This document shows, piece by piece, positions 2,928-56,256 of a stretch of 64,000 nucleotides of DNA (within the stretch, counting starts at the first letter, position 1; each line of letters begins with the position of its first letter). Source of the stretch: Chloroflexota bacterium (GTDB taxonomy: Bacteria; Chloroflexota; Anaerolineae; Anaerolineales; Anaerolineaceae); the NCBI GenBank assembly GCA_016887485.1, contig CP069394.1, positions 62,001 to 126,000 of the forward strand, given 5' to 3'. The notes below the pieces were generated by a model. It did not search any database. It was not told the DNA's origin and saw nothing but the letters and a program-made list of their open reading frames with translations. The position numbers were made by a program, and so were the translations under genes.

Positions 2928-3026
2928 CTAAATATTGGCAGGCGCACTCCGCGTAGGTCCAGATCCACCGGCAACAGCGGCAGATTTGAGACGGTTTACG
3001 AAAATTGCAGAAATAACCATGCTCAT
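2928..3026 (-). CDS. Putative 32-aa leader peptide
   Basis: ATG at 3026 has AAAGGA nine bases upstream, a better ribosome site than many real genes here. The peptide begins MSMVISAIFVNRLKSAAVAG and ends SAPANI before TAG at 2930-2928. The peptide is not recognised. It has no run of one scarce amino-acid codon, so a classical biosynthetic attenuator is not evident. Its place directly before two terminators and a GNAT-MFS operon suggests a translated leader that senses ribosome stalling, for example by an antibiotic. Function is inferred only from layout. Confidence 0.5.
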   Translation of the reverse strand: MSMVISAIFVNRLKSAAVAGGSGPTRSAPANI

Positions 3027-3144
3027 GCGGGTGCGTCCTTTCTTGTAAGATTCTTATCTAATAAGCCTGAAAGTCAGGCGGGTTTCTCAACATAACGAGT
3101 TTATCATAAAGATTTCTACTATGTCAAGTAAAATTTCATCATTT

Positions 3145-3789
3145 TCAAGACTTTTTAAGAAATCCGAAATAGAGCAATGCGCCCAAACCCACGACACAGA
3201 CCGCCACCAGGCCAATTCCGAAACTTTTACCATTGCTCAGGGCCTGGGTGATGATGGAAGGCCCGCGGGTCGGCTCTTGGGTAGGCGCTGGAGTTTGTGT
3301 GGGATAGGGGGTCATTGTGGCCCGCGGCTGGGTGGGTGTCGGGGTGCCAGGGTCCTCAGTTGGGGTGGGGGTTGCCGTGGCGGTGGGGACTGTGGCTTTT
3401 TGGATAATCAGCGTCTGCCCTTCATACACGGCAGTCGTTTCAAGGCTGATGTTGCTGTTGGCCAGGATGGTCTCAATTGGAACCCCATAAGCCTGCGAAA
3501 TGTCCCAGAGCGTCTCGCCGTATTTCACTTTGTGGATGATGATCCCATCTTCATTGGGTGTAGCGGTTGTCACAGGATAGATCACAGGTTCAGTCTCCTG
3601 AGCGATAATCGTCGTATCTTCCTCGTTATTGGGGTCATCTGAAACGGCGTTATCGGAGAGGATGGCTTTCAGGTTGAAAGGGGTGAACATACCCGCACCG
3701 GACTGAGCCTGCACCATGCGAGAAGGCGCTACAAGGAGCAGGATGAGGGCCAATAGGGGAATGAGAGTTCGTTTTAGCGCTTTTTGCAT
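3145..3789 (-). CDS. Secreted LysM protein with C-terminal membrane anchor
   Basis: A 214-residue envelope protein. Residues 1-29 form a signal peptide (MQKALKR then a Leu-rich core ending VQAQ). One LysM domain spans about 84-131 (HKVKYGETLWDISQAYGV ... EGQTLIIQK). A Thr/Pro-rich stalk follows (about 133-175), then a terminal hydrophobic helix (GLVAVCVVGLGALLYFGF) with a KKS tail. LysM domains bind N-acetylglucosamine polymers, so it probably sits on the membrane and touches peptidoglycan or surface glycan; no catalytic domain is visible. A TATAAT at 3804-3799 lies only nine bases before the ATG, so the mRNA may have almost no 5' leader. It is divergent from serS. Confidence 0.75.
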   Translation of the reverse strand: MQKALKRTLIPLLALILLLVAPSRMVQAQSGAGMFTPFNLKAILSDNAVSDDPNNEEDTTIIAQETEPVIYPVTTATPNEDGIIIHKVKYGETLWDISQAYGVPIETILANSNISLETTAVYEGQTLIIQKATVPTATATPTPTEDPGTPTPTQPRATMTPYPTQTPAPTQEPTRGPSIITQALSNGKSFGIGLVAVCVVGLGALLYFGFLKKS

Positions 3790-48010: not shown

Positions 48011-49891
48011 ATGAAACATCGAGACTGGAAACGCTATAACCCGCCCAAAGAACTTGCTGCCATCCTCAAAGCTAATCCGGATGTGACCATTGTGGGCACT
48101 TCGGATGAGCTGTTGGAACTCTCCTGTGGTGAGAACGGCAAGACCTTTGATGTGGCCTACCAAATTCCTAATCTTGGGAAGGTGGTGGATGCCACGGTGG
48201 TGCGGGTGCGCAATGGGATCGCAGCGAACTACCCTTCGCCCTATATGCGCCGGCGGGACCCAAACGCGATGTTGATCGGTGATGACGGCCCCACAGACCA
48301 TACGCGTTTCGAGGAAGTATATGGCTATCCTTTCACGGATTTGCGCACGCGGACATTTGAGTGGCTGACCAAGAATCCATTGATCCTCTATGCTTATGTG
48401 ACGGGGAAGAAAGGCCTGGGCAAGGATGCTCTGGTGGTGGCTCCGGCCAATGCCGGTTTCTTTGGCTTCGGGCTGGCTTTGCTGCAGGGGATCACGCCCT
48501 ATGAGGAGGTTGACAAGGACTTCAACCCGGCCTCGGTGATCTATGTGGCACCGACTTTCCGCTATACCGATTTGAACAATAAACAGGTGGTGGTGCATTA
48601 CCGCCAACCCGGCATGCACGAGGTCTTTTCCTACTGCCTTTACCCCGGCCCCAGCGCCAAGAAAGCCGCCTACAGCATTTTGCTGAACCAGGGTGAGCAG
48701 GAAGGCTGGGTGACTGCACACTGTTCCACTGTCCGGGTTGTGACGCCTTATGACAACGAAGTGACCTTCATGCACGAGGGTGCCAGCGGGGCGGGCAAGA
48801 GTGAGATGTTGGAGTATCCCCACCGCGAGGACGACGGACGGATGCTCTATGGCGAGAACATCGTGACCGGTGAGAAACGGCTGCATGAACAGCCCCGCAC
48901 CTGCGCGCTGCACCCGGTGACAGATGATATGGCGCTTTGCCACCCTTCCCTGCAGCATAACGGCAAGCTGGCCGTGGTGGACGCGGAAGACGCCTGGTTT
49001 GTGCGCACCAATCACATCCATCATTACGGCACTGACCTGAACTTTGAACGGCTGACGGCGGAACCCGATGAGCCGCTGCTTTTCCTGAATATCAACGCCG
49101 CCCCGAATGGGATCGCGATGATCTGGGACCATGTGCTGGATGCACCTGGTAAGCCCTGCCCGAACCCGCGGGTGGTGGTCCCCAGAAAGATTATCCCGCA
49201 TGTGGTGAACGAGCCGGTGGATGTGGATATCCGTTCCTTCGGCATGCGTACGCCCCCCTGTACCCGTGAGAACCCAAGCTATGGGATTGTGGGCTTTTTC
49301 CATATTTTGCCCCCGGCGCTGGCCTGGCTTTGGCGGCTGGTGGCCCCGCGCGGCTATGACAACCCCAGCATCACGGACAGCAAGGGTCTTTCGACCGAGG
49401 GCGTGGGCTCCTATTGGGCCTTTGCCACCGGAAAGCGCACCGTGCACGCCAACTACCTGCTGGAACAGTTCACCAGCAGCCCCGATACCAGCTATGTTCT
49501 GACGCCTAACCAGCATGTCGGCGCCTGGAAGGTTGGTTTCATGCCTCAGTGGCTGATGCGGGAATATCTGGCCCGGCGCGGCCATGCCCGCTTCCTGCCG
49601 GAAAACGTACGCCCGGCGCGCTGTTCGCTGTTGGGTGAATATCCGCACCAGATCCAGATCGAAGGGCGGCAGCTCTCCCGCTGGTTCTTCGCGGTGGATA
49701 CGCAGCCCGAAGTGGGTCCCGAGGCCTATGACCAGGGTGCTGAAATGCTCTACACATTCTTCCACGAGATCTTGCGTCAATATGACCAGGAGGCGCTGAC
49801 GCCCCTGGGACGCGAGATCATCCAATGCTGCCTGGATCGTGGCAGCCTGGCGGAGTATAAGTCGCTGATCGCTTTTGAGGAGAAGGGATAA
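48011..49891 (+). CDS. DUF4914 protein with PEPCK-like P-loop
   Basis: A 626-residue protein of a family with no assigned function (DUF4914). The middle has a kinase-type P-loop FMHEGASGAGKSEMLEYP, close to the GxSGxGKT loop of ATP-dependent phosphoenolpyruvate carboxykinase and HPr kinase. The flanks carry HPVTDDMALCHPS and several His/Asp-rich segments that could bind metal. A PEPCK-like phosphotransfer reaction is plausible but not shown. It lies 71 bases after citrate synthase in the same direction, so a role around oxaloacetate is attractive. A 660-codon frame on the other strand is only a shadow. Confidence 0.7.
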   Translation: MKHRDWKRYNPPKELAAILKANPDVTIVGTSDELLELSCGENGKTFDVAYQIPNLGKVVDATVVRVRNGIAANYPSPYMRRRDPNAMLIGDDGPTDHTRFEEVYGYPFTDLRTRTFEWLTKNPLILYAYVTGKKGLGKDALVVAPANAGFFGFGLALLQGITPYEEVDKDFNPASVIYVAPTFRYTDLNNKQVVVHYRQPGMHEVFSYCLYPGPSAKKAAYSILLNQGEQEGWVTAHCSTVRVVTPYDNEVTFMHEGASGAGKSEMLEYPHREDDGRMLYGENIVTGEKRLHEQPRTCALHPVTDDMALCHPSLQHNGKLAVVDAEDAWFVRTNHIHHYGTDLNFERLTAEPDEPLLFLNINAAPNGIAMIWDHVLDAPGKPCPNPRVVVPRKIIPHVVNEPVDVDIRSFGMRTPPCTRENPSYGIVGFFHILPPALAWLWRLVAPRGYDNPSITDSKGLSTEGVGSYWAFATGKRTVHANYLLEQFTSSPDTSYVLTPNQHVGAWKVGFMPQWLMREYLARRGHARFLPENVRPARCSLLGEYPHQIQIEGRQLSRWFFAVDTQPEVGPEAYDQGAEMLYTFFHEILRQYDQEALTPLGREIIQCCLDRGSLAEYKSLIAFEEKG

Positions 49892-50220
49892 GCGTTCTTT
49901 TAGGTTTGAATAAGAGAAATGTCCGTAACACGCAGCCACCCAGTCGACCTTAGGTTAGCCGGGTGGTTGGGGGTTAAGGTGGGGTAATAATTTAGAAAAA
50001 AGAGTAAATAATAAATACATCGGGTAAGTTTTATTCACAAATGTTATTGCTTCCATTTTATGATTGATCATTAGAATTAAAAAGTTGAAAGAAAAAGGTG
50101 GATAAAGATAATTGAGTTTAAATTCTATTAGTAATATTACATAATGTATAATAATAAATGGGTGAAATTAAGAATTTAGAATAAATATTTCTTACATAAG
50201 AATCAATAGAGGAAAATGTA
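49892..50220. other. Gap and composition boundary before the helicase gene
   Basis: The first 80 bases are GC-rich and hold an imperfect CCACCCAG/CCGGGTGG stem near 49.94-49.97 kb. From about 49.98 kb the sequence is abruptly AT-rich. A TATAAT at 50147-50152 may be the helicase promoter; GAGGAAAA follows before the ATG. No repeat or attachment site was found at the boundary. Confidence 0.6.
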
Positions 50221-52305
50221 ATGCATTTAAATATTCTTCAGGAAGTATTGAAAAAGTATCCTATTGCAGAAGATCTATATAATTTCCTTTTTCAAATTGA
50301 AACTGATGTAGAACTAACGGATTGTGAGTTTTATTTAAATTTTCCAATTTATAATAACCTTGAGGGACAAGTTTTTACAACCGATATATTATTGATCTCT
50401 CCTAAGTATGGGGTGATTGTTGTGGGATTATTTAATGATTCGGTTGAAAATGATCATAATAATCTAAGTAAAGTTGAAATGAAATCGAATAAAATTTTTA
50501 GTTTCATTTATTCGAAATTATTAAGAAATGATTTGTTGCGCAGTTCACGGACAGATTTGATTTTTCCTACAGAAATCTTCTTGTTTGCTCCTTTAATTAA
50601 GAATTTGAATTTTCAATCCACGAGTGATATTGAGATTTATAATTCAATTGATGGCGTTCAATCTTTTTTTACAACAAGAAATGATAGTTCATCAAGGCTT
50701 TCTGAGAGTTTATTTTTAGAATTAAAATCAACGATTGAAGGTGCTAAAGGCATAATTAGATTAAAAGAGAGACAATTTTCTGATGGTAAAACGAATTATA
50801 AAGGTCGGTTAGCCAATCTTACTGAATCTCAAATTGCTAATTTTGACCAGAAACAAAAAGATGGATTCATGCCCATTCTTGATGGTTTACAGAGAATTCG
50901 GGGTTTGGCAGGATCAGGAAAGACAGTAGTACTTGCTATGAAAGCAGCCTTGATGCATCTTTTATATCCGGATGCTCGAATTCTTTACACTTTTTATACA
51001 CGAAGTTTATATCAGCATATAAAAAGAATGATTACCAGGTTCTATCGGCAATTTGATGATAGGGATCCGGATTGGGATAAATTAAAGATAATGCATGCCT
51101 GGGGAGGTAAGAGTCAAGAGGGCGTATATTATAATGCCTGTCAATTTCATAATATGGAATCTCTCACCTTTTCTTCGGTAAAATTTAAATCTAATCATGA
51201 TCCTTTTGATTTTGTCTGTAATGATTTACTTAGTAAAACAACAATATTACCTATGTATGATTATGTACTTGTTGATGAAGGACAGGATTTCCCCGATTCA
51301 TTTATTAGGTTATGTGTTAAATTGGCAAGAGATTCACGAGTAGTGTATGCATATGACGAGCTTCAGACTATTTTTCAGATAAAAGCACCATCTCCAAAGG
51401 ATGTAATTGGCCCTGATATTGAGCTAAGTAGTGATATTGTCCTCGATAAATGTTATCGAAACCCGAGAGAGATATTATTATGTGCACATGCACTGGGTTT
51501 TGGTATTTATGGTGAAATACGACAGATGCTTGAAAATAAAGAGCATTGGGAAGATATTGGATATAGAGTAATTCGGGGTAATTTTCAAGAGGGTGATGAA
51601 ATTATTATTGAGCGTCCATTAGAAAATTCATTACCAATTATTTCAAATGAACAATCAAAAGAAGATATTGTTCAATGCACGGTATTTAGCGAATTCTTAG
51701 ATGAGATTAATTCAATTTGTTTAGGAATAGAGAAAGATATTGATGATGGACTCCGTCCAGATGATATTCTTGTTATCGTTGTCGATGATCGAAATGCAAG
51801 AGACTATTTAAGTGCTATTTCAAATAAGTTAGCTGAAAAGGATATTGCTTCCAACAATATTCATATAGACAGTTATGGAATAAAAGATTTTCAACAAGAG
51901 GGACGAGTGACTTTATCAACTGTACATAAGGCTAAAGGCAATGAAGCTTTTATGGTTTATATTGTGGGTGTTGATTCATTATTTGCTGGTGAGGCAAATG
52001 TTAGAGAGAGAAATATTCTTTTTTCAGCTATGACAAGAGCAAAAGGGTGGGTTCGGGTTTCTGGCATCGGGCGGACGGCGGAGATATGTAGTCAAGAAAT
52101 AAATAAAGCTCTAGAAAACTTCCCTTATTTAAGATTTGAATATCCAAGTGGCGATGAGTTAAACAAGATCAAGCGTGATTTAGAGGAAAAAGCTATAAGA
52201 AAGCAAAACGCTGAGAGAGCTTTGGAAAAAGCGATGAAATATTTTTCAGTTGAAGAGATTCAAGAAATTTTAGCTCAAAGATCAATAAATAAGGGAGAAT
52301 CATGA
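50221..52305 (+). CDS. SF1 (UvrD/Rep-like) helicase with degenerate NERD-like N-terminus
   Basis: A 694-residue protein. Residues about 1-190 resemble a NERD nuclease domain: Asp55 in TTDILLISPKYG is kept, but the catalytic E-x-K is replaced by Gly-Leu-Phe (VVGLFN, 67-72), so it is probably inactive. The helicase core follows: Q-motif-like LTESQIANFDQ (200-210), P-loop GLAGSGKT (228-235), Walker B VDEGQDFP (351-358), the SF1 motif TLSTVHKAKGNEAF, and motif VI RNILFSAMTRAKGW. It should translocate on or unwind single-stranded nucleic acid using ATP. The C-terminus is a charged coil. The DNA is much more AT-rich than the flanking genes. The partner gene starts within about 25 bases. Confidence 0.8.
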   Translation: MHLNILQEVLKKYPIAEDLYNFLFQIETDVELTDCEFYLNFPIYNNLEGQVFTTDILLISPKYGVIVVGLFNDSVENDHNNLSKVEMKSNKIFSFIYSKLLRNDLLRSSRTDLIFPTEIFLFAPLIKNLNFQSTSDIEIYNSIDGVQSFFTTRNDSSSRLSESLFLELKSTIEGAKGIIRLKERQFSDGKTNYKGRLANLTESQIANFDQKQKDGFMPILDGLQRIRGLAGSGKTVVLAMKAALMHLLYPDARILYTFYTRSLYQHIKRMITRFYRQFDDRDPDWDKLKIMHAWGGKSQEGVYYNACQFHNMESLTFSSVKFKSNHDPFDFVCNDLLSKTTILPMYDYVLVDEGQDFPDSFIRLCVKLARDSRVVYAYDELQTIFQIKAPSPKDVIGPDIELSSDIVLDKCYRNPREILLCAHALGFGIYGEIRQMLENKEHWEDIGYRVIRGNFQEGDEIIIERPLENSLPIISNEQSKEDIVQCTVFSEFLDEINSICLGIEKDIDDGLRPDDILVIVVDDRNARDYLSAISNKLAEKDIASNNIHIDSYGIKDFQQEGRVTLSTVHKAKGNEAFMVYIVGVDSLFAGEANVRERNILFSAMTRAKGWVRVSGIGRTAEICSQEINKALENFPYLRFEYPSGDELNKIKRDLEEKAIRKQNAERALEKAMKYFSVEEIQEILAQRSINKGES

Positions 52306-52327
52306 AGAATTGTTGGAAAAGACAATA

Positions 52328-53011
52328 ATGAATCGTGGGCTTGTTGAAACAGAAATCAATGATGCATGGACATTATTAAAAAGATTAGGACTTGGTAAAG
52401 ATCGTGAATATCACCCTGGTACTCCTAGTAATCCAGCAGCACTCTTCAGACGATTAACCTATCAAGATTATTGGAGTACATCTTTCAATGAGCATTATTA
52501 TAATTTTCTTCTTTTCGATAATTCCATAATTGACTTTCGGTTTAATTCGTTTAGACCATTAAATTTCACTTATTCCTATATTGAGTGTCCCTATATTTTT
52601 GTGACATTTTTTGATTATGTGAAGAATTTAGATATTGAGATAGATTCGCAAGACTACCAAGAATTGGAGTGGGATCTGAAAAAAGCTTATGATATGGAGG
52701 GCCAAGACCAAGAATTAAAATTGACTGTCACACCGATTAGATATGATTTCGCCCCCGAAATATATACTTTAGATGTCCATCCCGCATCACATTTCCATTT
52801 GGGATTCAAAAATGAGATAAGAATTGGTACAAAGAGAATATTACATCCATTATCATTCATTCTCTTTGTACTTAGGCATTGTTATCCAAATAAGTGGATT
52901 GAGTTCATTTCAATTGATCAATATATTAAGTTTCTACCATTAATTAGAGATTCTTTAGATGAAATAGATGCCTCTATCTTTTTTAATGAAAAAGAAATGA
53001 TCCTCGAATAA
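52328..53011 (+). CDS. DUF2290-like protein paired with the SF1 helicase
   Basis: A 227-residue protein that looks like DUF2290, a family of unknown function often found beside an SF1 helicase in defence-like contexts. The match is from recollection of pattern (LFRRLTYQDYWSTSFNEHYYNFLLFDN, TPIRYDFAP, HPASHFHLGF, HPLSFILFVLRHCYPNKWI), not a search. No catalytic motif is obvious; the conserved His-rich and aromatic stretch HPASHFHLG is the best candidate site. It follows the helicase stop by 22 bases; the ATG at 52328 has a weak ribosome site, and TTG at 52310 (with GGGAG 12 bases upstream) is a fair alternative. Composition is as AT-rich as the helicase gene. Confidence 0.65.
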   Translation: MNRGLVETEINDAWTLLKRLGLGKDREYHPGTPSNPAALFRRLTYQDYWSTSFNEHYYNFLLFDNSIIDFRFNSFRPLNFTYSYIECPYIFVTFFDYVKNLDIEIDSQDYQELEWDLKKAYDMEGQDQELKLTVTPIRYDFAPEIYTLDVHPASHFHLGFKNEIRIGTKRILHPLSFILFVLRHCYPNKWIEFISIDQYIKFLPLIRDSLDEIDASIFFNEKEMILE

Positions 53012-53256
53012 ACATCTAATATGGAAGAATACGGTTTTTCTATTAATATTTTGTCTTTGGATTGTTGCAGGTTCTTTAACCGTTGTCTGTAATAATCGAC
53101 CGTAATATTCTAAGGCGTCTCATTTCATTGTATAATTTCTCCTAACCAAGCTAATCATGTTAGCCGCAGGAGAAGGAGGGAAATGGTCCATCACACACAG
53201 CACACGAAATCATTCTTACATTGAACAACATTTAGTGGGAAATCATGGGAGAAACG

Positions 53257-53844
53257 ATGCATAAAAAAGTTCTGATGGTTGGAATCCTGGTTACGATATT
53301 CTTGGTGACAACTGGATGCGGTTTGTTTGATCAGATCGGTCAAAGCATCGGCTAAAAAACGCCAACGAATACCGAAGTGCCCGAGGATACGGCTACGCCG
53401 ATCCCGACTTCGACCGCAACGGTAACTGTGACGCCGACAGTTACCAACACGTTACCACCGACGGAGACGAGCACGCCGACGGAGCCCCCGTTTATCAAAG
53501 CCAGTGATATCAGCCTTGATGACTTAGGAGAAAAAATCCAGGTTTGTGGTCAGGTCACAGATTACGAAGAAATCTACTGCCCGAGCTGCGTCTATGGGTT
53601 TTATTCCTATCTCACACTGGATGATAACTTCTACATCATTTCGTATGAGTGGACCTTTGGCGAGGGCTGGATTGGTTCGTATATCACCGTGAAAGACACC
53701 GTGGAACAAATGGGGAGCAATCCGATATTTGTCTTCGGTGGCACAGAGGGCTGGGATGAGACGGAATGTGAGCTCATGCCAGATGGGTCACTCTCCTGCG
53801 TGGGAGGGAACTACTTCTTGAATGTTCCCAACTGCTCTTATTAG
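53257..53844 (+). pseudogene. Lipoprotein gene interrupted by in-frame TAA
   Basis: ATG at 53257 with GGGAG upstream opens a lipoprotein signal peptide (HKKVLMVGILVTIFLVTTGC; lipobox Cys at residue 21). Twelve codons later TAA (53353-53355) interrupts, after SIG. The same frame then continues without further stops through a Thr/Pro-rich linker (TPTNTEVPEDTATPIP) and a globular end (about 110 residues, four or more Cys, GEKIQVCGQVTDYEE) to 53844. The whole is one gene of about 195 codons with a nonsense change, not two genes. A GTG at 53377 could start a fragment, but it has no export signal. The gap at 53012-53256 holds a TATAAT, a short hairpin, and a 13-codon ORF with a strong ribosome site. 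Confidence 0.7.
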
Positions 53845-53852
53845 AAAATGAA

Positions 53853-53874
53853 AGGTGGGCCTTGCGGCCCACCT
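53853..53874. terminator. Convergent terminator
   Basis: AGGTGGGCC (53853-53861) pairs with GGCCCACCT (53866-53874) around a TTGC loop, placed between the convergent lipoprotein and radical-SAM genes. The T flank is short. Confidence 0.6.
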
Positions 53875-53883
53875 TATTCATAC

Positions 53884-55617
53884 CTATTTTTTACCCTTCT
53901 TTTTTGGCCGCCGGTGCTCTTCCGGCAACTCACCGCGTCCGGTGATCACTTCTTTTTGGCGTTGTTTGGCGGCGGGGTTCTTTTCCACAAATAATGTCTC
54001 TCCGGTGAAGGGGTCCTTGCCGGTGTAATACATCACGCTGGCGTAGGTGGAGGGCGTGGGGGTGAAAACCTGGACCTGTTCGGGCAGGATCCCGAGTTGG
54101 CTGCTGGCGAATTTCTTCAATTCCTGCATATCCGTCATCGTGCAGCCTGGATAGGCGGCGATCAGGTAATAGCTGAGGTATTGTTTGCGTTTGACATCCG
54201 TTCCCAGTGCATCAAAGCGCTCTTTGAATGCCAGGAGGCTACCGGTGTCCGGTTTGCGCATCCGTTTGAGGATTTCAGGGTCGGTGTGCTCGGGGGCCAC
54301 TCGCAGCTGGCCGGAGACGTGATGGCGGACCAGCTCGCGCAGGTAGGCTTGCCCATGTTCCTCATCCGAGAGGATCAGGTCATAGCGTAATCCCGAACCG
54401 ACAAAGACCTTCTTAACGCCTTTGATCTGGCGAATTTTGCGCATCATGTCGGTCTGCTTGCTGTGATCCACGGGGAGAACCGGACAGACCTCGGGGTAGA
54501 TGCAGGATTTATCGAGACAGGGTCCCTTGCGCAGTTTGACCGGGCATTCGTAACCATACATGTTGGCGGTTGGGGCGGAGAGGTCGGTGATGAAACCGGT
54601 GAAGTCGGGCAGGTGGGTGATTGTCCTGGCTTCGTCGAGGATCGAGGCTTCGCTGCGCCACTGCACCGTGCGGCCTTCATGGACCGCTATGGCGCAGAAG
54701 TTACATTCGCCATAACAACCGCGATGGGTGGGAATGGAGTAGCGGATCGTCTCCAGGGCCTTGACCTTGCCCTGTTTGGCGTAGTAGGGGTGCTGGTCAC
54801 GCTCAAAATCGAGGCCGTAAACATGATCCAGTTCTTCCTGGGTCAGGTGCGGATAAGGTGGGTTTTGGATCAGGTAGCGGTTGCCGTGTGCTTGGGCCAG
54901 GCCATGGGCGTTGAGTGGGTCATTGTTGCGATAGAAGACGTGGAACATCTCGGTGAAGGCATCCTTATCCTTGCTCACTAATTCATAGGATGGCAGTTCC
55001 AGGTAGCCTTCGGGAATCTCGGTGCCGTTATAACAAAGGCCGCGGATTTTGGTCGGGTCGCTGCCCTCTTCGAGTGTTTTGGCAAATTCCAGGACGCTGC
55101 CTTCCGCCATGCCATAGAGCAGGTAGTCGGCTTTGGCATCAAAGAGGACAGACCGGCGGATTTTGTCGGTCCAGAAGTCGTAATGTGCCACCCGGCGCAG
55201 GCTGGCTTCAATCCCGCCCAACATGATCGGGACGGTGTTCTTGAAGTAGCGGCGGATCTGGTTGGCATAGACCAGGGTGGCCCGGTTGGGGCGTTTGGTG
55301 TTGCGGCCACCGGGGGTGTAGTCATCCGCGCGGCGGGGACGGCCGGTGGCGGTGTAGTTGGCAACCATCGAGTCGATGCTGCCGGCGGAGACGCCCCAGA
55401 AGAGCCGCGGCTCTCCCAGGCGGGTGATGTCATCGGGTGATTGGGTGTCGGGTTGAGCGATGATGCCAACTTTATAGCCTGCTTCCTGCAGGACCTTGCC
55501 GATCACGGCCACGCCAATGAAGGGTGAGTCGATGTAGGAATCACCGGTGATGAGAATGACATCCAGTTTATCCCAGCCAAGTTTGTCGAGTTCGGCTCGG
55601 GTAGTAGGTAAGAACAT
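53884..55617 (-). CDS. YgiQ-family radical SAM protein
   Basis: A 577-residue UPF0313/YgiQ protein. The N-terminal part (about 1-290) resembles a cobalamin-binding-like flavodoxin fold (VILITGDSYIDSPFIGVAVIGKVLQEAGYKVGII). The radical SAM cluster is in HRGCYGECNFCAIAVHEG (CxxxCxxC). The C-terminal domain ends with a Lys/Arg-rich tail (HRRPKKKGKK). Its substrate is not established. The enzyme is commonly found as a single gene, and that is so here. The protein appears complete. Confidence 0.88.
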   Translation of the reverse strand: MFLPTTRAELDKLGWDKLDVILITGDSYIDSPFIGVAVIGKVLQEAGYKVGIIAQPDTQSPDDITRLGEPRLFWGVSAGSIDSMVANYTATGRPRRADDYTPGGRNTKRPNRATLVYANQIRRYFKNTVPIMLGGIEASLRRVAHYDFWTDKIRRSVLFDAKADYLLYGMAEGSVLEFAKTLEEGSDPTKIRGLCYNGTEIPEGYLELPSYELVSKDKDAFTEMFHVFYRNNDPLNAHGLAQAHGNRYLIQNPPYPHLTQEELDHVYGLDFERDQHPYYAKQGKVKALETIRYSIPTHRGCYGECNFCAIAVHEGRTVQWRSEASILDEARTITHLPDFTGFITDLSAPTANMYGYECPVKLRKGPCLDKSCIYPEVCPVLPVDHSKQTDMMRKIRQIKGVKKVFVGSGLRYDLILSDEEHGQAYLRELVRHHVSGQLRVAPEHTDPEILKRMRKPDTGSLLAFKERFDALGTDVKRKQYLSYYLIAAYPGCTMTDMQELKKFASSQLGILPEQVQVFTPTPSTYASVMYYTGKDPFTGETLFVEKNPAAKQRQKEVITGRGELPEEHRRPKKKGKK

Positions 55618-55729: not shown

Positions 55730-56256
55730 CCCTTCCACTCCTAAGGGGAAGGGTGCCGAAGGCGGAATGGGGTCACGTTCCTCGCAACATACAGGACTTC
55801 TTCGAGGATAAGGGAACCTGGTTCATCATTGCGAGCTTGCGACATCGTCCCCGAAGCGAAGCGGAGTGGGAAGCAATCTGATCTTTGTTGATATTGGATG
55901 ATCTGCAGATGTAAATAATAAAAGAAGATTGCTTCGTCAGCCTTCGGCTCCCTCGCAATGACAAGAAAAGGAATTGTAGATTGCCTCCACTTCGCCGTCC
56001 TTCGGGGACTGAGTCGGTCTTCGCAATGATAAGGTAATCTTGTTTGTCATTGCGAGCTTGCGACATCGTCCCCGAAGCGAAGCCGGGTAGGAAACAATCT
56101 GATCTTTGTTGATATTGGATGATCTGCAGATGTAAATAATAAAAGAAGATTGCTTCGTTCCTCGCAATGACAAAGAAGGAGAAATGATAGATTGCTCCCC
56201 ACTTCGCTGTGCTTCGGGGACCGTGTTATCTGCCTTCAGCTTCCTCGCAATGACAG
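55730..56256. repeat. Second cluster of the GCGAAGCAATC-type palindrome
   Basis: Two related copies start at 55826 and 56047, 221 bases apart. Each begins TCATTGCGAGCTTGCGACATCG and ends with GATTGCTTCG and CTCGCAATGACA. Their centres (GATCTTTGTTGATATTGG and following) are nearly identical to each other but differ from the centres at 38.4-39.2 kb. A third, partial copy follows to about 56.25 kb. Only the outer arms are shared with the 186-bp repeat, so this is a dispersed family. No gene is seen from 55618 to 56346. Confidence 0.75.

Follow-up and report, generated by a model that had tools for sequence, protein, structure and literature searches.

A low-GC helicase and DUF2290 gene pair in a Chloroflexota genome, very probably a member of the Helicase+DUF2290 defence system

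Introduction

What do two strongly AT-rich genes, one encoding a helicase and the other a protein of the DUF2290 family, do side by side in the genome of a Chloroflexota bacterium of the family Anaerolineaceae? They fill an AT-rich block of about 3 kb (49980-53011) in the stretch of 64,000 nucleotides analysed here (assembly GCA_016887485.1, contig CP069394.1, positions 62,001 to 126,000 of the forward strand; hereafter the window), with genes for a DUF4914 protein (48011-49891) and, on the minus strand, a radical SAM protein (53884-55617) on either side. A first-pass annotation of this DNA had explained the block by transfer of a compact two-gene system directed against phages or interfering with plasmids, a proposal now supported by homology and gene pairing, by distribution and composition, and by published work on relatives. 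The pair is almost certainly another representative of Helicase+DUF2290, a system described before. Taken as a whole, the reading that it is an intact, horizontally acquired immune module, in which the helicase would sense and DUF2290 would act as effector, is the one that we favour, with modest confidence.

The published work on this system comes from two directions. Helicase+DUF2290 was described by Rousset et al. (2022) from a P4-satellite hotspot and inhibits phage T7 in Escherichia coli K-12 (PMC9122126); the role of its helicase domains is said not to have been explored (PMC10952713), and the literature passages that mention DUF2290 give no function for it. The genes PA1372/PA1371 of Pseudomonas aeruginosa PAO1 have been called as Helicase+DUF2290 (PMC11637435). 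PA1372 lies in a low-GC island (44% vs 67%), is sporadic and is accompanied by PA1371 where matches occur, and its loss relieves three effects of plasmid pNUK73, namely fitness cost, rep overexpression and the transcriptional (SOS) response (PMC4410645).

The two genes and their assignment to a known system

The helicase gene (50221-52305, plus strand) is an intact open reading frame (ORF) for 694 amino acids, and PADLOC, Pfam, motifs and an AlphaFold2 model identify its product as a superfamily 1 (SF1) helicase of UvrD/PcrA-like type. The helicase core occupies roughly residues 205-640, behind an N-terminal domain (roughly 1-130) that is NERD-like but degenerate. The PADLOC model PDLC03002, named 'Helicase', matches at 492.7 bits, residues 3-680 falling on positions 2-687 of a profile of 707, and Pfam recognizes UvrD_C_2 (E 2.1e-11). 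All SF1 motifs that were sought are present, namely GLAGSGKT at residue 228, DEGQD at 352, YDELQ at 378, YRN at 412, KAKGNEA at 570 and SAMTRAK at 602. The structural model (predicted local distance difference test, pLDDT, 84.5) aligns within residues 173-632 with Deinococcus radiodurans UvrD (Z 27.9, root-mean-square deviation, rmsd, 3.5, 364 aligned) and with SLFN11 (Z 25.0, rmsd 3.7, 321 aligned). Identity to the aligned family members is 28-41%.

The second gene, also an intact ORF on the plus strand, runs from an ATG at 52328 to 53011 and encodes 227 amino acids (233 from an alternative TTG at 52310). Its product matches Pfam DUF2290 (PF10053; E 1e-9, 38.6 bits, cut-off 25) and two DUF2290 models of PADLOC, with an E of 1.7e-13 for PDLC02998, as the first-pass annotation had suspected. 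If the ATG is used, its start lies 22 bp past the helicase stop, in line with the close spacing that had been stated. Read from the sequence, a possible relay ORF of 8 codons (52302-52328, plus strand) spans the gap, with ATGA at the helicase stop and TAATG at the DUF2290 start; it might couple translation of the two genes, or it may be due to chance.

The PADLOC models can be equated with the Helicase+DUF2290 system on the basis of their names, of the literature and of an E. coli plasmid helicase with an adjoining DUF2290 gene that matches PDLC03002 at 988 bits. The window pair has the same two families in the same order, tight spacing, a nearly full-length model match and an AT-rich mobile setting, and it is assigned through these models rather than by comparison with the tested Klebsiella/E. 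coli protein itself. With PA1372/PA1371 it shares, by description, a UvrD-like helicase with a constant partner, low GC and sporadic occurrence; the plasmid phenotype is a measurement on the PAO1 genes only. The anti-phage role of the window copy is a suggestion taken from its relatives.

Two other systems invite comparison. The helicase HamB of Hachiman belongs to SF2 and its HamA to DUF1837. Pfam and PADLOC scans of the window pair gave no DUF1837, with DUF2290 and UvrD-type matches instead, which speaks against Hachiman membership. As an arrangement of a sensor helicase paired with an effector, Hachiman (HamA nuclease plus HamB helicase; PMC12278908) nevertheless offers a parallel in the way of working. 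Gabija has a UvrD-like subunit, GajB, that resembles the window helicase weakly, but its OLD/TOPRIM nuclease GajA has no counterpart in the partner or in the seven neighbouring ORFs scanned with Pfam, among which restriction genes are absent as well; the earlier statement that neither adjoins the pair therefore holds for these ORFs.

A constant partner across plasmids, viral contigs and chromosomes

The pairing recurs wherever it could be inspected. A plasmid search returned 53 records with a helicase match, 17 of which reach a query cover of 80% or more; 11 of the 17 were opened, near-duplicates being skipped, and a DUF2290 ORF stands directly 3' of the helicase in every one. In the Proteus plasmid record, which bears no annotation at that place, DUF2290 was found as an ORF. 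One of four plasmid records at lower cover was also opened (Acinetobacter pittii, L086, 73%), and since its DUF2290 is annotated as two overlapping ORFs (2950-3619), that copy is probably broken or mis-assembled. Viral contigs were scanned with the helicase alignment, the DUF2290 alignment (A1) being too diverse for a pattern scan; DUF2290 lies next to the helicase in 15 of 19 loci, which are all 15 with room for it, the remaining four contigs ending inside the helicase ORF or at most 3 bp past it. A Catenovulum locus has DUF2290 beside the helicase too, and within the phylum DUF2290 occurs in four of 400 genomes (our own included), each time beside the helicase. In E. coli, the DNA of the plasmid pair was matched in 5 of 5426 genomes, at least 80% of the pair in three of them. 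A search of a phage collection with the helicase found nothing.

Loss of the nuclease site in the helicase and invariant residues in DUF2290

One hhalign comparison (probability 95.3%, E 2e-8) aligns the helicase N-terminus with NERD domains from related helicases, and of the nuclease site the N-terminus retains D55 while E-x-K is replaced, in agreement with the first-pass description of an SF1 helicase with a NERD-like domain lacking this catalytic pair. This loss is general in the paired helicases: E-x-K stands in register in none of the 29 with a readable N-terminus (that of L047 is unreadable and lies outside this count) and in none of four cut by contig ends. On haloarchaeal, Deinococcus and cyanobacterial plasmids there are SF1 helicases that share a homologous core and the NERD N-terminus, but most of those opened keep E-x-K and none has a recognized partner. 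Twelve of 19 listed lower-cover plasmid records (H22-H40; 13 further records lie outside the listing) were opened, with about 3 kb fetched for each; D...E-x-K is present in eight of the 12 helicases, one N-terminus is not readable (L078), and none of the 12 loci has a recognized DUF2290 on the same strand. The relatives of this NERD type that were scanned match PDLC03002 in the core only (L029, for example, at 386.8 bits over residues 182-668), in contrast to the window helicase, which matches over nearly its full length including the N-terminus.

Two kinds of loci among these plasmids are worth recording in their own right. On an Acinetobacter towneri plasmid (L085, 2395-5176), a divergent helicase lacking E-x-K is followed directly by a partner of 237 amino acids that has no Pfam match, gives an hhalign probability of 11.5% against DUF2290 and is scored as lacking DUF2290 in the counts above. 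Since it retains RYDYD...HPKYH, this partner may be a much-diverged DUF2290, or it possibly stands for a second DUF2290-like family. On two haloarchaeal plasmids (L079 and L084), an ORF of 243 amino acids with no Pfam match lies directly 5' of each helicase, and the two ORFs are alike by eye; perhaps they represent another two-gene variant.

The DUF2290 protein has a conserved polar set of its own. In 28 of 28 different sequences D64, R138, H151, H155, R165 and F177 are invariant, and position 140 holds either D (25 sequences) or E (three). The AlphaFold2 model (pLDDT 81.0, predicted template modelling score, pTM, 0.77) has seven strands of at least three residues with flanking helices. The search for a solved sequence relative gave one match at chance level (E 0.24), and structure searches with this model neither show a new fold nor exclude a known one. 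Two additions come out of this comparison, the absence of E-x-K from helicases paired with DUF2290 and the set of invariant DUF2290 residues; a limited literature search met neither. If the paired helicases have truly lost their nuclease site, the effector activity is expected to reside in DUF2290, whose six invariant residues are targets for mutation.

By eye, DUF2290 is reminiscent of TumE (DUF6516, PF20126) in an ordered set of a D-G-S strand, an R-[YF]-D strand and H-P-x-x-H. TumE is described as a seven-strand antiparallel sheet that carries two helices, as translation-targeting and as encoded mostly downstream of its partner (PMC10584680). Kinship was examined with ORFs from 18 of 20 TumE loci, of which L055, L067 and L074 were dropped (not TumE by eye) and 15 were aligned. 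The hhalign probability was about 1% with both the 17-row and the 28-row DUF2290 alignments. A hidden Markov model (HMM) of TumE scored 25 of the 28 DUF2290 sequences at a mean of 0.04 (maximum 4.6), against -0.85 (maximum 6.2) for shuffles (p 0.001) and 0.07 (maximum 5.9) for unrelated helicase fragments, so that the DUF2290 scores rank above the shuffles but not above the helicase controls. The reverse search agreed, with a mean of -0.34 (maximum 5.8), with -1.48 (maximum 16.0) for shuffles (p 0.017) and -0.74 (maximum 6.7) for helicase fragments. With such hhalign values and with HMM scores no better than those of the helicase fragments, kinship to TumE is unsupported by sequence.

Foreign composition and sporadic distribution

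The sharp change in composition that had been reported at about 49.98 kb, with a return after 53.0 kb, is confirmed by measurement. The segment 49981-53011 has a GC content of 0.318, whereas 549 segments of 3031 bp elsewhere in the 64 kb have a mean of 0.529, a standard deviation of 0.025 and a minimum of 0.475; the recovery on the right is gradual, at about 53.1-53.4 kb. Codon use agrees, the synonymous-codon distance from the rest of the window being 1.05 for both island genes; among 29 further long ORFs (at least 300 amino acids, longest non-overlapping, some perhaps not genes) it does not exceed 0.62. GC at third codon positions is 0.23 and 0.27 in the island genes, and in the 29 ORFs it averages 0.64 with a minimum of 0.49. 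Low GC relative to the flanks is found in 33 of 35 loci of the family, in some by very little, with a tie in Dietzia and the reverse in Proteus, and the window shows the largest gap of all, 0.20; for loci cut by contig ends, GC was taken from the helicase alone.

Distribution was compared over 61 genomes, comprising our own, 15 of the same genus, 21 of the same family and 24 of the same order. Any helicase match occurs in nine of them, spanning the protein only in our own and in one genome of the same family (G018, 34% identical), the other seven being partial. No same-genus genome has a full-length match, in contrast with what a core gene set conserved in all relatives with normal composition would show; seven of these 15 genomes are at least 90% complete, and some of the absences are weak because the other eight are only 66-81% complete. 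In a helicase gene tree of 43 rows (leaving out the G399 helicase, L042, L047, L048 and L078), the window helicase groups with two viral-contig helicases at support 80/97, a group that is not starred, and falls in no starred set; the G018 helicase stands inside a separate clade of 19 rows (100/100), a separation consistent with independent acquisition. The branches of L085 and L044 were flagged as long. For the phylum label the tree gives a figure of one change, which is reckoned solely relative to the outgroup and does not speak for a single origin.

The insertion site tells a similar story. A close relative, G009, whose radical SAM protein is 91% and DUF4914 protein 92% identical, shares sequence through ...GGGGGTTAAGGT to window position 49980 and then diverges, which sets the left junction at about 49980; from there to its radical SAM gene it has other ORFs. 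The right-hand junction is placed only within 53.01-53.88 kb. In a second genome, G001, the two flanking genes are again neighbours, and the 4.7 kb separating them contain other ORFs; there is no DNA match to window 46-58 kb. The DUF4914 gene is present in six of 16 genus genomes, as a neighbour of the radical SAM gene in three (G000, G009, G001) and on separate contigs in the other three. The presence of other ORFs between the same flanking genes in G009 and G001 indicates that this spot (49980-53884 in the window) holds variable cargo; a strictly empty site was not found among these genomes, only sites with other cargo. The G009 cargo includes an AT-rich overlapping pair (L049, 1928-3164), an unmatched ORF of 251 amino acids and a PIN-domain ORF, which is perhaps a toxin-antitoxin or defence pair.

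Proposed mechanism and competing explanations

The invariant polar residues of DUF2290, the lost nuclease site of the helicase and its intact motor together suggest a division of labour, and the SOS and plasmid rep effects in PAO1, which need the helicase, fit the sensing or processing of replication intermediates. In the mechanism proposed here, the helicase would engage abnormal DNA arising from phage or plasmid replication, such as ends, gaps or Rep-nicked origins, with the dead NERD domain serving as a putative DNA-binding or docking platform. Engagement driven by ATP might free or activate DUF2290, which would then act as effector, probably as a nucleic-acid-cleaving or otherwise toxic enzyme by means of its R/D/H set. 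We give these roles of sensor and effector even chances, and that DUF2290 cleaves nucleic acids is a tentative suggestion, more doubtful than the roles themselves. Such a mechanism would explain why at least one plasmid is costly in Pseudomonas, and it would tie defence against phages to the fitness of plasmids.

Several observations weigh against this picture. Published Helicase+DUF2290 activity is narrow, covering only T7 among eight coliphages (PMC9122126), and PA1372 mutation had no effect with four other plasmids, the authors of that study seeing no role for the gene in PAO1 and arguing that it is parasitic (PMC4410645). The DUF2290 model has no match at E <= 0.001 in the PDB or among the viral structures of BFVD, hence no clear likeness to a nuclease or toxin, and its best VIA-align result (Z 5.0, rmsd 3.4, 89 aligned) is at the level of common arrangements. 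The correlation between E-x-K and DUF2290 is imperfect too: the helicases of L079, L084 and L085 lack E-x-K and have no recognized DUF2290. Among the paired helicases, L039 carries D-L-K at the register position, an E-x-K occurs in L035 and L044 but shifted by three residues towards the C-terminus, and 22 of 29 retain the D of the site. Since loss and gain may be one evolutionary event, this correlation counts about once.

The strongest competitor, which we nonetheless regard as unlikely, is that the pair attacks invading DNA directly and without toxicity in the style of RecBCD or Gabija, the helicase unwinding while DUF2290 cuts or loads a host nuclease. The UvrD/PcrA-type core, the presence of AddAB and RecB among the structural neighbours of the helicase model and the weak matches of GajB profiles (best 38.9 bits) fit such an activity, but the E-x-K of the helicase is gone and the DUF2290 model lacks a nuclease-fold match among solved structures. 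Moreover, the PAO1 helicase raises plasmid rep expression, while no significant difference in plasmid copy number was seen with the mutants (PMC4410645), a combination unlike degradation of plasmid DNA.

It is less likely still that the pair is a selfish module of mobile elements, hindering competing replicons or stabilizing its own with little benefit to the host. Besides the parasitic interpretation of the PAO1 gene (PMC4410645), the relatives on plasmids and viral contigs favour it, as does the position of the pair next to the conjugation genes trbJ/trbL in the two E. coli chromosomes opened (of the three with at least 80% of the pair); yet a related pair has been shown to protect E. coli against T7 (PMC9122126), and no integrase, relaxase or replication gene was found among the seven scanned neighbouring ORFs of the window. 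Sensing by the helicase and effector action by DUF2290 could also take a more specific form, to which we assign a low probability: DUF2290 would be an unrecognized class of effector enzyme, possibly a far relative of the translation-targeting TumE-type toxins, that replaced the in-cis NERD nuclease of an ancestral helicase and is restrained as a toxin by the present one. Were DUF2290 of such a class, RYDYD...HPKYH, almost all that the L085 partner retains, would mark the active site, an improbable case as well. Finally, a housekeeping DNA-repair helicase gene of this lineage that happens to have an odd composition is hardly credible, for although the core resembles UvrD, full-length matches occur in none of the 15 same-genus genomes and in one (G018) of 60 relatives, DUF2290 in four of 400 phylum genomes, and the composition is foreign.

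Surroundings of the pair

The helicase gene is preceded by a very AT-rich leader (49980-50220; 17-25% GC in 100-bp steps from 50001), in which a promoter-like match lies at 50085-50112; the island is no richer than shuffles in promoter-like and terminator-like sites, and a target-site search gave no convincing direct repeats framing it. Pfam identified an IclR regulator, citrate synthase, DUF4914, radical SAM and UPF0047 among the seven neighbouring ORFs, two being without a match, and the radical SAM protein is of YgiQ type by eye. Between the pair and the radical SAM gene lies a lipoprotein-like gene (53245-53844), with a signal peptide and lipobox recognized by eye, a Thr/Pro-rich linker and a domain with no Pfam match; an in-frame stop near 53353 makes it a pseudogene or points to an assembly error. 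Beyond the radical SAM gene, 55770-56180 is a dispersed repeat with 75 matches in its own genome at E <= 0.001 (itself included), mostly pieces of about 30-60 bp.

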